Assembly (NCBI RefSeq): GCF_001306145.1
Contig: NZ_LGKO01000005.1
Coordinates: 558,001 to 622,000, forward strand
Origin: Thermanaerothrix daxensis
GTDB lineage: Bacteria; Chloroflexota; Anaerolineae; Anaerolineales; Anaerolineaceae
Direction: 5' to 3'
DNA length: 64,000 nt
The position numbers were made by a program, and so were the translations under genes. The notes beneath the pieces are model-generated. The model was given only the letters and a program-made list of their open reading frames with translations. It made no database searches and had not been told where the DNA came from. Position 1 is the stretch's first letter; each line of letters starts with the position of its first letter. Below, one piece after another: positions 42,294 through 46,400 of this stretch.

Positions 42294-43517
42294 TTATTCA
42301 CCAAGGTAATCCCTGAGTTTGCGGCGAATGCTGGGATGACGCAGGCGACTGAGAGCCTGGGCTTCAATCTGCCGCACTCGCTCGCGGGTGACCCCCATCT
42401 TACGCCCAACCTCTTCCAGGGTGTAGGCCTGACCGTCAAGCAGGCCGTAGCGCAACTGCAAGATGCGTACCTCACGTGGTGGTAGTGTGTTGAGCACTTC
42501 TTCGAGGTGTTCGCGCAGCAAGTTGTAGGTGGCGGTGTCGTCGGGAGGGGGTGCCTCCTCATCCTCGATGAAGTCGCCCAGCACCGAGTCCTCCTCGTCA
42601 TCGGTGGGGGTTTCTAGCGAAAGTGGCCGACGAGCGACCTGGATCATGTTCTCCACCTTCTTAGGAGGCACATCCAGTTCCTCGGCCAGTTCTTCCACGG
42701 TTGGCTCACGCCCCAGGCGCTGGGTCAACTGATGTTGGACGCGCAGTAATTTGTTGATCTGATCGCCCATATGAACGGGGACGCGGATGGTGCGTCCCTG
42801 ATCCGCAATTGCCCGCGTCACTGCCTGGCGGATCCACCACGTAGCGTAGGTGCTGAACTTGTGCCCGCGGCGGTAATCAAACTTCTTGGTAGCGCGGATT
42901 AGGCCAATGTTCCCTTCCTGAATAAGATCGAGGAAAGGAACACCGCGCCCCATGTACTTCTTAGCCACGCTGATGACCAGACGCGAATTTGCGGTGATCA
43001 AGTGCTCACGCGCTGCCCACCCATCTTCGATGAGTTTGCGCAGTTCCAGGCGGCGCTTGGGGCTTACATTGCCGCGCGCCAATTCTTCGCGGGCCATACG
43101 GCCACGCTCAATACGCTGAGCCAGCTCGACTTCTTCCTCAGCGGTGAGCAGGGGGACGCGACTTACCTCTTTGAGGTACAGGCCAATGGTGTCATCGGTG
43201 TCAATATCTCGCAGGTCGTCAAGGTTGAGGTCGTGTTCAATCGCCTCGAGTTCAGGCTCTTCTTCCAGTAACTCCTCTTCCTCTTCCTCCTCCCCCAGTT
43301 CGCCACTGAGGGGTTCATCTTCGAGGTAAGGAATACCTGCGCTCATCAGGGCCGAAAAGGCTTCTTCCAATTGATCTACATCTTGCTCCGCTTCTGGGAA
43401 GAAGTGCAGGATGTCGTCAATGGTGACATAGCCCTTCTGGCGCCCCAGTTCAATCAGGCGGGCGATTGCAGGATATTCTTCGTCCTCATCTACAACGTTA
43501 AGCAGCGGATTTTCCAT
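42294..43517 (-). CDS. rpoD: Primary RNA polymerase sigma factor (RpoD/SigA)
   Basis: The housekeeping sigma factor, about 407 residues. A region 1.1-like N-terminus ([19 protein letters not shown]) is followed by an acidic linker (runs of Glu, about residues 70-95), region 1.2 [20 protein letters not shown], region 2 with [20 protein letters not shown] and [20 protein letters not shown], region 3 and region 4 with [20 protein letters not shown]. Region 2.4 and 4.2 residues fit recognition of the TATAAT/TTGACA promoters found in this window. ATG 43517 follows GGAAGG. Confidence 0.96.
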
Positions 43518-43640
43518 AGGCCTTCCAATCATCCTCGATAATCGAGAGTAGGGTTTCAAAAATATAAGGTTCGCTTATCAGCATACACTTTTTTTCATTA
43601 AAATTCAATACGTGTACACATTTATTTTTTACTTACAATA

Positions 43641-43660
43641 ACCCGATCTTAAGATCGGGT
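43641..43660. repeat. perfect 20-bp palindrome upstream of the sigma factor gene
   Basis: ACCCGATCTT followed directly by its reverse complement AAGATCGGGT, 123 bases before the sigma start codon. There is no loop and no following T run on either strand, so it is not a standard terminator; it may be an operator, or pair as a cruciform. Confidence 0.6.
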
Positions 43661-43770: not shown

Positions 43771-43792
43771 AAATTCTAATCAAATTCTAATC
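43771..43792 (+). repeat. tandem 11-bp direct repeat, possible response-regulator binding site
   Basis: AAATTCTAATC occurs twice in immediate succession (43771-43781 and 43782-43792). The 11-bp period is that expected for tandem binding of an OmpR/PhoB-type response regulator. It lies 34 bases before the -35 element of the promoter for such a gene. A weaker related stretch, AAGAATTCAAT, lies just upstream at 43751. Confidence 0.55.
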
Positions 43793-43825
43793 TTGCTATG
43801 GGCGAAATGACTTTTCGGACCTTGA

Positions 43826-43854
43826 TTGACAAAAGAGGTTTACCTCACTATAAT
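43826..43854 (+). promoter_or_regulatory. consensus promoter of the response regulator gene
   Basis: TTGACA (43826-43831), 17-base spacer, TATAAT (43849-43854). Transcription start expected near 43861, leaving a 173-base leader before the start codon. Confidence 0.92.
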
Positions 43855-43860
43855 GGATTT

Positions 43861-44008
43861 ATAACCGAACGGAACTTTTGTAACATTGTAAGTAAATAGT
43901 AATGTGTGGCGGCGAGGATCCGAATGTCTGAGATGGTCGCTTGCCTGAGTTATGTCAGGCGGACATTCGGGGAGCCAAGTAGCGAAACCGGCCTTAGGCC
44001 GGTTTTGT
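43861..44008 (+). ncRNA. candidate structured leader RNA (attenuator or riboswitch-like)
   Basis: The leader of the response regulator message folds by eye into nested stems: an outer TGGC/GCCA (43907-43910 / 43973-43976), a 9-bp CCGAATGTC/GACATTCGG (43920-43928 / 43962-43970), an inner 6-bp GCCTGA/TCAGGC (43943-43948 / 43955-43960) with a six-base loop, and finally a terminator hairpin. Two internal loops, GGCGAGGAT/GGA and TGAGATGGTCGCT, contain purine-rich bases that could form a binding site. I compared it by memory with common classes (TPP, SAM, c-di-GMP, c-di-AMP, guanidine, ZTP) and it does not match. The alternative is a free small RNA. Confidence 0.6.
43986..44008 (+). terminator. 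intrinsic terminator inside the leader, 25 bases before the start codon
   Basis: AACCGGCC (43986-43993), loop TTA, GGCCGGTT (43997-44004) and a T run ending in GTAT. It lies between promoter and gene, so readthrough must be controlled or partial. Confidence 0.85.
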
Positions 44009-44033
44009 ATATTCCTGATCAGGAGGTGTAATC

Positions 44034-44777
44034 ATGGTTCTAAGCCAACCGTTAGGAGCCGACCTGGATGAATTCTACGCCGGTCAGCGCTCACGCATCA
44101 TGATTGTAGAAGACGATCCCGAAACCACCATGCTCTTGAAGCAGATATTGCGTACGGCAGGTTTTGATGTCCTTAGCGCTGTGAATGGGGTGGAGGCAAT
44201 TAAGAAATATCATACCGTGACCCCAGATTTGGTGCTTTTGGACTTGATGATGCCCGAAATGGATGGTTGGGAGACATTGCGTCAGTTGCGCCAGGTTAGT
44301 TCGACCCCTGTAATGGTGCTCACCGCGGTCGATAGTAAAGATTCCCTGATGGATTGTTTCCAGTCAGGCGCAGATGACTATCTGGTCAAGCCTTTTCATC
44401 GGGGAGAGATTTTGGCGCGAATTAATGCTGTTTTACGGCGTTCGCGACATGCTCAACCCTCGCACCGCTATGTGTTCCCCAAAGTGGGGCTGATCATTGA
44501 AAGTCAGTCGCGTGAAGTCCGCTACAAAAATGAACGCATCCCGCTCACGGTAAAGGAGTTTGAGGTGCTCTCCACTCTGGCAAAATACGCCCCTGAGGTG
44601 GTGGATTACTTGACTCTCTCCGAGGCAGTATGGGGCCGTGATCTTCCCCAGGCGCGGCAGCGCATCAAATTCCTGGTCTACCTCCTGCGACGAAAACTGG
44701 GCAAAGTGGATGAAGCGGGCGCCGATCTAATCGTTAATGTGGATCGGTTAGGCTACAAATTGGAAACGGGCGAATAA
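44034..44777 (+). CDS. Response regulator, OmpR/PhoB family
   Basis: A 247-residue two-component regulator. The receiver domain (about residues 22-135) has the acidic pair VEDD, the phospho-accepting Asp in LVLLDLMMPEMDGWE, the Thr/Ser switch in VMVLTAVD and the Lys in DYLVKPF. The C-terminal winged-helix DNA-binding domain runs from about 150 (PLTVKEFEVLSTLAKYAPEV, RIKFLVYLLRRKLG, VDRLGYKLE). The N-terminus has an extra 20 residues before the receiver. No histidine kinase gene is adjacent; a sortase gene follows 33 bases later. AGGAGG precedes the ATG. Confidence 0.94.
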   Translation: MVLSQPLGADLDEFYAGQRSRIMIVEDDPETTMLLKQILRTAGFDVLSAVNGVEAIKKYHTVTPDLVLLDLMMPEMDGWETLRQLRQVSSTPVMVLTAVDSKDSLMDCFQSGADDYLVKPFHRGEILARINAVLRRSRHAQPSHRYVFPKVGLIIESQSREVRYKNERIPLTVKEFEVLSTLAKYAPEVVDYLTLSEAVWGRDLPQARQRIKFLVYLLRRKLGKVDEAGADLIVNVDRLGYKLETGE

Positions 44778-44810: not shown

Positions 44811-45599
44811 ATGACAATGCACTCTTTATGGGATTGGCGTCGCCTGGGCGGTATTTTGTTGCTGCTCGGAGGTTTGCTCGGTCTGGGGTTTAGCATATAT
44901 CAATGGTGGACAGCGCAAGCCTCTGAGCTGGAGGTGGTCATTGATGAGCCTCTTTCAGATAGCGGGTTTGTGCCCCTAACGTTATCTGAAGCCCAGGAAG
45001 GTCCTCCCACGCTAGCAGCCCCGCAACCCCAGGGGGTAACAGCCCTGCCAGGAACACCTGCGGTGCCATTAAATGCTGTATCCCCAAGGGTGAGGCCGAC
45101 CCCTTCGCCCATACCCGCCATTCCTGAGCGCTTGCTTATCTCCAAAATTGATCTGGATGCTCCGGTCGTCCCTGTTAAGGCGCGTAAAGTCAAGCTTGGG
45201 GATGGGGTATTTGAACAGTGGCTTGCTCCAGATGAGTTTGCTGCGGGTTGGCCCACTGGAACGGCCATGTTGGGTCAGGTGGGAAACACGGTACTCATAG
45301 GGCACCACAATGTGCATGGCAAAGTGTTCGAGCGGTTGCATGAATTGGAACCAGGCGACTTGATCGTTGTTGAAGGGGGTGGTCGTCGGTTCAGTTACGT
45401 GGTGGTCAATGTGATGATCTTGCCTGAACGGGATGCCGATTTCAAGACCCGGCTGGAGAACGCACGCTGGATTCAGCGCTCACAAGATGAACGTCTCACA
45501 CTGGTCACGTGTTGGCCAGCCTATTCGAACACACATCGGTTGATCGTAGTGGCTCAACCACTAGGTCAAACTCCGTTATTGGAGGCTGAGCCCGAGTAA
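44811..45599 (+). CDS. Sortase (class E/D-like transpeptidase)
   Basis: A cysteine transpeptidase that attaches proteins to the envelope or to each other. The 262-residue protein has an N-terminal membrane anchor (about residues 11-33), a Pro-rich linker (55-103) and the sortase beta barrel (105-255). The catalytic triad is visible: His165/166 in VLIGHHNVHG, Cys234 in LTLVTCWPAYSN and Arg243 in THRLIVVA. The first part of the barrel (RLLISKIDLDAPVVPV) is also standard. It probably shares a message with the response regulator and converges on another sortase-like gene. Confidence 0.9.
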   Translation: MTMHSLWDWRRLGGILLLLGGLLGLGFSIYQWWTAQASELEVVIDEPLSDSGFVPLTLSEAQEGPPTLAAPQPQGVTALPGTPAVPLNAVSPRVRPTPSPIPAIPERLLISKIDLDAPVVPVKARKVKLGDGVFEQWLAPDEFAAGWPTGTAMLGQVGNTVLIGHHNVHGKVFERLHELEPGDLIVVEGGGRRFSYVVVNVMILPERDADFKTRLENARWIQRSQDERLTLVTCWPAYSNTHRLIVVAQPLGQTPLLEAEPE

Positions 45600-45606
45600 A
45601 GGCTGT

Positions 45607-46311
45607 TTATTGCAGAGGGATGGGAGGAACAGTCGCCTCTTCAGGCAAAGCAATGATGAAAAGGCGCCCCCATGAATTTTCTCCGTTTCTGGCGATACAG
45701 GTTTGCAGGATCAGCGCCCCGGGGCGATCGTAGATGTGCAAAAATAATTCGGAAGCGCTCAGGGTGGCCCGTGTCGGATCATCAAGATCTACGAAGGAGG
45801 AATAGGGAGAAGTGGGTTGAAGGGCCTGATAGCGTTCTATCGCTATAATGCGGTAGCGCCTCAGGTTGCCCTCTCCGAAGATAACCCACAGATCTTGACC
45901 AGGTTGGAGGGCAAAGAAGGACTGACCAGCCCGATCGTTGTGTGCCAGTAAACCCAGGCTTCCGTAGCGCCTAGCCAGGGCAAATTCGGTGAGAGTATCG
46001 GGTTGTGGGGAGACATAGGCTGGGTTTGAGCGGGGTTGCTGGATAATCGGATAGGCCATGATCCCCTCCACATAAAGGCCCATGGGTTGTTCGGGATCGC
46101 TAGTGAGTTCAAGGCGATTTCGGAATTCCTGAAGAGCCTTCAGGTCAAGGGGGGCTAATGCCGCCATCGCATAATTGCGTCCAGCGGCGAGACCTGGATC
46201 ACGTGTTGGGTTGGGAATGGAAATATGCGCGGTGGTGGCGAACCACACCCCTACCAAAAGGGCAATTTTGGCAACGGCGTACCACAGGCAAATTCGGGGT
46301 TTTGGGGTCAT
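45607..46311 (-). CDS. Sortase-like membrane protein
   Basis: A 234-residue protein with an N-terminal anchor (about residues 10-30) and a sortase-type barrel: His124 in LGLLAHNDRAGQSFF, Cys205 in LILQTCIARNG and Arg216 in SWGRLFIIA, spaced as in sortases but with the Cys-to-Arg loop two residues longer than in its neighbour. The start of the barrel is not conserved. It may act on different substrates from the convergent sortase; the two stop codons are only 7 bases apart. ATG 46311 was chosen; an earlier in-frame ATG (46344) is less likely. Confidence 0.7.
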   Translation of the reverse strand: MTPKPRICLWYAVAKIALLVGVWFATTAHISIPNPTRDPGLAAGRNYAMAALAPLDLKALQEFRNRLELTSDPEQPMGLYVEGIMAYPIIQQPRSNPAYVSPQPDTLTEFALARRYGSLGLLAHNDRAGQSFFALQPGQDLWVIFGEGNLRRYRIIAIERYQALQPTSPYSSFVDLDDPTRATLSASELFLHIYDRPGALILQTCIARNGENSWGRLFIIALPEEATVPPIPLQ

Positions 46312-46400
46312 GGCGCGCCCATTATCCGTGAACCCTGCAGTCAAAGCAAGTGCTTTCAGGCGTTTGTAAGGTGGGCTTACAGAAATGTAAGGTCGCGTTG

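Follow-up and report, generated by a model that had tools for sequence, protein, structure and literature searches.

The leader RNA upstream of the OmpR/PhoB-family response regulator gene in the window (the whole 64,000-nucleotide stretch of the Thermanaerothrix daxensis genome analyzed here) is a real, conserved riboswitch-type element and, judged by its sequence, a divergent form of a known class, the c-di-GMP-II aptamer. We put the probability that it is a divergent c-di-GMP-II-type riboswitch acting as a transcriptional ON switch at roughly 80%. The leader is homologous to this class, its structure covaries down to the pseudoknot, its aptamer overlaps its terminator, and elements of its kind recur before one clade of regulator homologs. 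The first-pass annotation had recognized the layout of a riboswitch or attenuator, which the promoter, the folding leader, and the terminator before the start codon bear out; its remark that none of the common classes matches gives way to the matches with Rfam family RF01786 and with a covariance model of our own (R2). What had been a leader without a class becomes a testable switch.

Table 1. Features of the leader and its surroundings, with positions counted from the first letter of the window.
Feature	Position	Strand	Remarks
Tandem direct repeat AAATTCTAATC x2, period 11	43771..43792	+	candidate OmpR-type regulator binding site
Sigma-70-type promoter TTGACA-17-TATAAT	43826..43854	+	12/12 consensus matches
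Leader RNA	43861..44033	+	start inferred from promoter position
c-di-GMP-II-like aptamer, whole match	43899..44002	+	RF01786, RF03169, and R2 matches
P2 5' strand GGC	43911..43913	+	pairs with 43974-43976
P3 5' strand, 9 bp	43920..43928	+	pairs with 43962-43970
U37-G38-G39 ligand-side bases and pseudoknot 5' strand U40-C41-G42-C43-U44	43934..43941	+	
P4 hairpin GCCTGA/TCAGGC, 6 bp	43943..43960	+	
P3 3' strand	43962..43970	+	pairs with 43920-43928
P2 3' strand GCC	43974..43976	+	pairs with 43911-43913
Pseudoknot 3' strand A64-A68 and ligand strand A68-A69-A70-C71-C72-G73-G74	43981..43991	+	
Terminator hairpin	43982..44008	+	5' arm 43982-43993 = G65 through G74 and two P1 C
Shine-Dalgarno sequence AGGAGG	44021..44026	+	from sequence
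OmpR/PhoB-family response regulator, controlled gene	44034..44777	+	Response_reg and Trans_reg_C
Sortase, next gene	44811..45599	+	33 bases downstream of regulator

The consensus promoter described earlier was recovered in full, with TTGACA starting at 43826, TATAAT ending at 43854, and a 17-base spacer between them, and the same TTGACA-17-TATAAT is present in the same-genus ortholog. Since three promoter-like sites with at least 9 of 12 matches were observed between 43000 and 45500 against 2.3 expected, the perfect score is the only distinctive feature of this promoter. The leader folds at -57.8 kcal/mol, compared with -45.8 +/- 3.95 kcal/mol for shuffles (z = -3.04), and 0 of 200 shuffles folded as well. 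Among the nested stems of 4, 9, and 6 bp that had been proposed, the 9-bp P3 (CCGAATGTC/GACATTCGG) and the 6-bp P4 were retained, whereas P2 is reduced to 3 bp when the leader is read as an aptamer. The terminator, likewise placed correctly by the first-pass annotation, ends 25 bases upstream of the ATG at 44034 and consists of GCGAAACCGGCC-TTA-GGCCGGTTTTGT, with 12 pairs, two of them G-U, an energy of -20.0 kcal/mol (computed with one to two flanking bases on each side), and a short, interrupted T tract (TTTTGTATATT). It was missed by an automatic terminator scan, probably because part of the T run lies within the stem. Two features are new relative to the earlier description: the pseudoknot between 43937-43941 and 43981-43985, and the use of aptamer sequence as an arm of the terminator.

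With the curated Rfam cutoffs, a search of the 64-kb window reported four tRNAs and no other family. With permissive filters, the best of 4227 Rfam families on positions 43780-44060 was c-di-GMP-II (RF01786), with 32.7 bits and an E value of 1.8e-5 (4.6e-5 when the whole genome was searched), below the gathering cutoff of 53.5. The window element also lies under the cutoffs of the two variant families tested, with 34.2 bits against a cutoff of 40 for RF03169 (c-di-GMP-II-GAG) and no report at E values up to 1 for RF03170 (c-di-GMP-II-GCG; cutoff, 47.9 bits). Model R2, a covariance model made from an alignment (A2) of 31 relatives, none of them from the window's genus, returned the leader as its sole match in the 64 kb up to an E value of 10 (79.3 bits; E = 7.6e-25, a rough value) and as the best of five clear copies in the 3.0-Mb genome, a sixth copy having an E value of 0.055. 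Matches of the leader to AgrB, P9, hammerhead II, ROSE_3, and similar families were rejected, with E values of 0.034 or higher and scores far below the cutoffs; they fall in or around the terminator hairpin.

Conservation and covariation upstream of homologs, which the first-pass annotation had proposed as a check, were both found, in alignments of 34 and 119 sequences and in a same-genus ortholog. In alignment A1 (34 sequences, with the pseudoknot), 79.4% of the cells are paired compared to 61.6% in shuffles, the covariation score is 0.525 compared to 0.191, and neither value was reached by any of 500 shuffles. In alignment A3 (119 sequences, without the pseudoknot), which was fitted to the structure of the model and thus leans towards that structure, the covariation score is 0.666 against 0.203 in shuffles, and again 0 of 500 shuffles came as high in either score or percentage paired. 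The number of pairs changed on both sides was reached by 2 of 500 shuffles for A1 and by 23 of 500 for A3, and sliding the structure along the alignment gave scores of 0.06 to 0.16 in both. As the shuffles ignore relatedness, these covariation figures are not to be read as probabilities. Covariation is strong in P3, with both-side changes at all eight modeled pairs in both A1 and A3, and in P4; P2 shows little variation and contributes little to the case, and P1 is paired in 62 to 66% of the cells. In the window itself P1 is weak (standard pairing at 6 of 11 positions, at three of them as G-U or U-G), and among the relatives in the 119-element alignment its innermost two or three pairs alone are well kept.

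The pseudoknot is 100% paired in A1 and barely varies within the order. Across the phylum we aligned 32 of 40 phylum elements with the window and three elements from the order (A5); because P3 is one column off in this alignment, a slide by +1 pairing better, and because the whole-structure controls are weak for two measures (reached by 55 and 230 of 500 shuffles), the pseudoknot rows alone were used from it. In these 36 sequences, 93.3% of the pseudoknot cells are paired, and all five pairs show both-side changes, as exemplified by pairs 40:68 (19 UA, 9 GC, 4 AU, and 4 unpaired) and 42:66 (23 GC, 11 AU, and 2 unpaired). Pseudoknot, ligand strand, and terminator have all been retained in the same-genus ortholog, in which 16% of the aligned bases differ; one change, at position 62, adjoins these retained parts.

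Ligand-site positions are numbered here as in structure 3Q3Z, by a tentative assignment to the Rfam columns based on the crystallized RNA and consistent with the list of its contacts. That list (PMC7288161) comprises A13, A14, U37, G39, U60, A61, C68, A69, A70, C71, C72, G73, and A74. Among 119 aligned elements from 100 of 120 loci, A69, C71, C72, and G73 are each present in all 119, U37 and G39 in 118 each, and A61 and A70 in 117 each. The window keeps the contact bases U37, A69, A70, C71, C72, and G73. Its differences from 3Q3Z that could matter affect two of the 13 contacts, A13, replaced by C, and C68, replaced by A; at positions that vary among its relatives, it has G-C in place of A14-U60 and G in place of A74, and it carries one extra base before A61. 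Position 13 is A in 76 of the 119 elements, C in 30 (including the window), G in 8, U in 3, and a gap in 2, while at position 68, 114 elements have A, 4 have U, and 1 has C; the 40:68 pair reads UA in 112, AU in 4, GC in 1, and a CA mismatch in 2.

Positions 67 to 69 distinguish the GAG and GCG variants, reportedly described by Weinberg et al. in 2017, with GAG kept as a separate class because its ligand may have changed. The Rfam GAG consensus has G at position 69 and C at position 37. In the window, positions 67 to 69 read G-A-A, which is neither GAG nor GCG, and none of the 138 parsed elements of our collection has either triplet (133 GAA, 4 GUA, and 1 GCA; the one element of 139 left unparsed, G041:C503, has letters that read GAA). 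A further 40 Chloroflexota elements comprise 25 GAA, 7 GCA, 2 GUA, and one each of GAG, GAU, and AAA, with 3 unparsed. One element with a true GAG (C37 and G69), found in a Chloroflexota genome (L337), could serve as a contrast. Membership in the GAG family, which we considered as its model passes many of the relatives, is ruled out by positions 37 and 69: by sequence, the group shares the pseudoknot pair of GAG but has canonical bases at the two positions that define this variant. Because U37 and A69 are canonical, we favor c-di-GMP as the probable ligand of the window element and regard the name GAG as misleading in this case. The genome encodes nine GGDEF domains.

The 5' arm of the terminator comprises the ligand strand in full and four of the five pseudoknot bases. 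Bound aptamer and terminator would therefore be mutually exclusive, which predicts an ON switch. This kind of overlap recurs in the group: a hairpin with a T-rich tail overlapping the core accompanies 104 of the 139 elements, compared with 79 of 2780 shuffled stretches (2.8%; mononucleotide shuffles of the downstream DNA with the core kept), and the other 35 elements have no such overlapping terminator by the same test. We predict the following mechanism with good confidence. RNA polymerase would start at about 43861 and transcribe the aptamer. In the presence of c-di-GMP, the loop UCGCU (43937-43941) would pair with AGCGA (43981-43985), and the strand AAACCGG would close around the ligand and could then no longer serve as the 5' arm of the terminator at 43982-44008. 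With the terminator blocked, transcription would read through into the response regulator gene and probably the adjoining sortase gene, and ligand binding would thus turn expression on. Without ligand, the 12-bp hairpin would form and transcription would stop about 25 bases upstream of the start codon.

In total, 139 elements were collected from 52 of 101 genomes, including the window's own. The RF01786 model matches 53 of the 101 genomes at E values up to 0.01, 4 of them over its cutoff, and the GAG model matches 54 at E values up to 0.1, 38 of them over its cutoff. Eleven rows had been left out before the elements were collected, five of them RF01786 matches of at most 27.3 bits (G077:C122, G082:C62, G078:C21, G065:C17, and G005:C115), of which G082:C62 scored 41.4 bits and thus above the cutoff with the GAG model, and six of them matches of at most 29 bits to the GAG model only (G010:C1, G081:C89, G085:C22, G082:C64:17131, G023:C16, and G026:C7). 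Across the phylum, R2 matches 80 of 400 genomes at E values up to 0.001 (same-order genomes included). A pattern scan of a collection of species genomes yielded at least 119 stretches, 80 of which were searched with R2; 54 of these hold a confirmed element, all of them in records whose titles name Chloroflexota or genera belonging to this phylum. Among the 80, R2 confirmed no pattern match in other phyla, nor did it confirm those in L154 (SAR202), L208 (Herpetosiphonaceae), and L209 (Anaerolineae). At six loci (L089, L077, L139, L079, L083, and L135), two or three c-di-GMP-II-like elements stand in a row; L077 and L089 have three, with a fourth 1.3 kb off in L089, and L135, in the window's own genome, has two. 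Tandem c-di-GMP-II riboswitches are already known, with 59 doublets and 9 triplets, mostly from Paraclostridium and close relatives (PMC9481103). The 53 of 101 genomes matched by the RF01786 model suggest that the Anaerolineales, an order with many filamentous, aggregate-forming members, use c-di-GMP-II-type riboswitches widely.

Next to this broad distribution stands a recurrent placement before the regulator, which among the controlled genes is the most useful marker. The element precedes 19 of the 32 closest regulator homologs but 1 of the next 67 (the best 99 of a longer list, from 61 genomes, with the border after the 32nd rank set at the gap in E values from 3.9e-55 to 1.0e-47), and in those 19 it lies on the same strand, 28 to 199 bases before the aligned start. 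The other 13 of the 32 have no element, and R2, run on 30 regulator loci, found no further clear copy, three extra matches having 12 to 13 bits. The sortase gene of the window is likely cotranscribed with the regulator, and we infer that the two share the transcript of the leader. A relative of this sortase is present in 8 of the 30 loci searched, window included (most with a 1.5-kb flank), and lies upstream of the regulator in L280. The genome has two Pfam sortases, including that of the window. A second sortase-like gene (45607-46344, minus strand), convergent with the first, matches NCBIfam NF053836, sortase_YLP (284 bits; E = 5.4e-85), and had no match in Pfam or among PDB sequences; its relatives occur in 5 of the 30 regulator loci searched, window included.

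To what extent does the function of other genes following the elements fit this picture? Among 105 of 129 unique downstream open reading frames (ORFs) scanned against Pfam, which were chosen mechanically and may include some nongenes or uncontrolled genes, we found 30 Response_reg and 30 Trans_reg_C domains, 4 exopolysaccharide-type sugar transferases, a few each of RTX, PKD, DUF11, beta-helix, and subtilase domains, and single matches to housekeeping enzymes, including a glutamate-type dehydrogenase and an amino acid kinase. An IPVTG-type sorting-like motif, followed as a rule by a hydrophobic stretch and basic residues, occurs in the last 70 residues of 15 of the 82 complete unique downstream ORFs and away from the C-terminal region in 1 of the 82. 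At the DNA level, the genome of the window yielded 4 matches to the motif, no more than expected by chance (5 in the reversed control); the match at C5:43217 is in frame and C-terminal, and an IPVTG protein lies downstream of the tandem elements C5:44151 and C5:44297. The IPVTG proteins may well be the cargo of the window's sortase, and the combination of regulator, sortase, and shared IPVTG tail suggests that a single signal controls an anchoring enzyme and its likely cargo. At two loci (L060 and L136), elements lie more than 400 bases upstream of small proteins (220 and 207 amino acids), which appear to resemble exported proteins of the SipW/TasA type, hinting at matrix fibers.

The regulator might also control its own gene. 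The direct repeat in Table 1, 33 bases upstream of the -35 box, has 11 of 11 matches, whereas none of 200 shuffled versions of the 220 bases upstream attained this value; its spacing is that used by OmpR/PhoB-type regulators, and the same-genus ortholog keeps 9 of its 11 positions. It is possible that the regulator binds here and is autoregulated; such a repeat (reached by at most 5 of 200 shuffles) occurs in just 5 of 22 regulator leaders examined and is thus not a general feature. An extended -35 box, TTGACAAACC, is common to 7 of the 22 leaders, some with TGGTTA or AGTTA upstream, and is possibly the regulator's own site. A perfect 20-bp palindrome (ACCCGATCTTAAGATCGGGT; 43641-43660) lies between the divergent gene for a sigma-70 factor (42294-43559, minus strand) and the leader, and may be an operator or a terminator.

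One alternative concerns the ligand. A changed ligand is suspected for the GAG and GCG variants of Rfam, and the elements described here might likewise be orphan-specificity variants, in which the c-di-GMP-II fold binds another signaling molecule: the GAG model gives the window element slightly more bits than the canonical one, far more genomes pass the GAG cutoff than the canonical cutoff (38 and 4 of 101), and the ligand-touching pair G40:C68 is replaced by U:A in 112 of 119 elements. Nevertheless, we consider a changed ligand unlikely. GAG and GCG are absent from all parsed elements of the collection, A69 and U37 are retained where the GAG consensus has other bases, and the 40:68 pair occurs as UA, AU, and GC while A69 is constant, which suggests that the identity of this pair does not set specificity. 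Moreover, many of the downstream genes are regulators or of a surface or exopolysaccharide type, as c-di-GMP predicts. In the most far-reaching version of this idea, the Chloroflexota U40:A68 "GAA" elements would be a riboswitch class of their own, its swapped pair tuned to a different cyclic dinucleotide or to a mixed signal; improbable as we hold this to be, such a "GAA" class would run a surface-anchoring regulon of regulator, sortase, and sorting-signal proteins across the Anaerolineales.

Two further readings dispense with switching altogether, and we regard both as very improbable. The leader could be a constitutive attenuator or small RNA, a short terminated transcript from which the regulator is expressed by leakage without any ligand, as the first-pass annotation had entertained. 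The perfect promoter and the stable terminator hairpin do make a transcript of about 148 nucleotides likely, and this part of the proposal stands insofar as the same terminated RNA is expected in the ligand-free state. As the main reading, however, it is disfavored by the recurrence of the element before many genes, by the overlap of arm and core in 104 of 139 copies, in which the terminator arm falls on the ligand strand, and by its placement before 19 of the 32 regulator homologs; the bases conserved before many unrelated genes are those of the aptamer, beyond the hairpin, and some loci have two or three copies in a row. Alternatively, the leader may be a decayed riboswitch that has lost switching, which its weak P1, the A13C change, the inserted base, and the subthreshold Rfam score could reflect. 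Decay is hard to reconcile with the ortholog, which keeps pseudoknot, ligand strand, and terminator despite its divergence, with C at position 13 in 30 of 119 elements, and with the 79.3 bits reached with R2, a score that ranks 16th among 119 elements that include the training sequences of the model.

No report of c-di-GMP-II riboswitches in Chloroflexota or Anaerolineae was found in the open-access literature searched, and such an absence is weak evidence of novelty. All six c-di-GMP models have been run on many genomes in one survey (PMC9943018). The Rfam models would label many of the present copies GAG even though these lack both of its marker bases, and the natural swaps of the 40:68 pair at constant A69 could directly reveal which bases choose the ligand.

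Compared with the known families, the window element shares with RF01786 the P1-P2-P3 plan, the pseudoknot, the UGG loop motif, the GGAG...AACCGG strand, and the position in a 5' untranslated region, but differs from it in pair 40:68 (U:A instead of G:C), in C at A13, in the pseudoknot (CGC/GCG instead of CAC/GUG), in an extra P4 hairpin within the P3 loop that the Rfam consensus does not have, and in a score 20.8 bits below the family cutoff. With the GAG family (RF03169), it has the U:A pair at 40:68 in common, and 38 of 101 genomes have an element above the GAG cutoff, whereas the window element itself is below that cutoff and has A69 rather than G and U37 rather than C. The GCG family (RF03170) has the same fold, and an element of the same genome (C5:44151) passes the GCG cutoff though reading GAA; unlike GCG, the window has A69 and not G. 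In Clostridioides difficile, class II c-di-GMP riboswitches act as ON switches (PMC6200980), and three of the four precede adhesin or pilus genes, two of these encoding sortase-dependent proteins. The window element would resemble them in its predicted ON direction; whereas those of C. difficile control adhesin or pilus genes, the window element is followed by an OmpR-type regulator and then the sortase.
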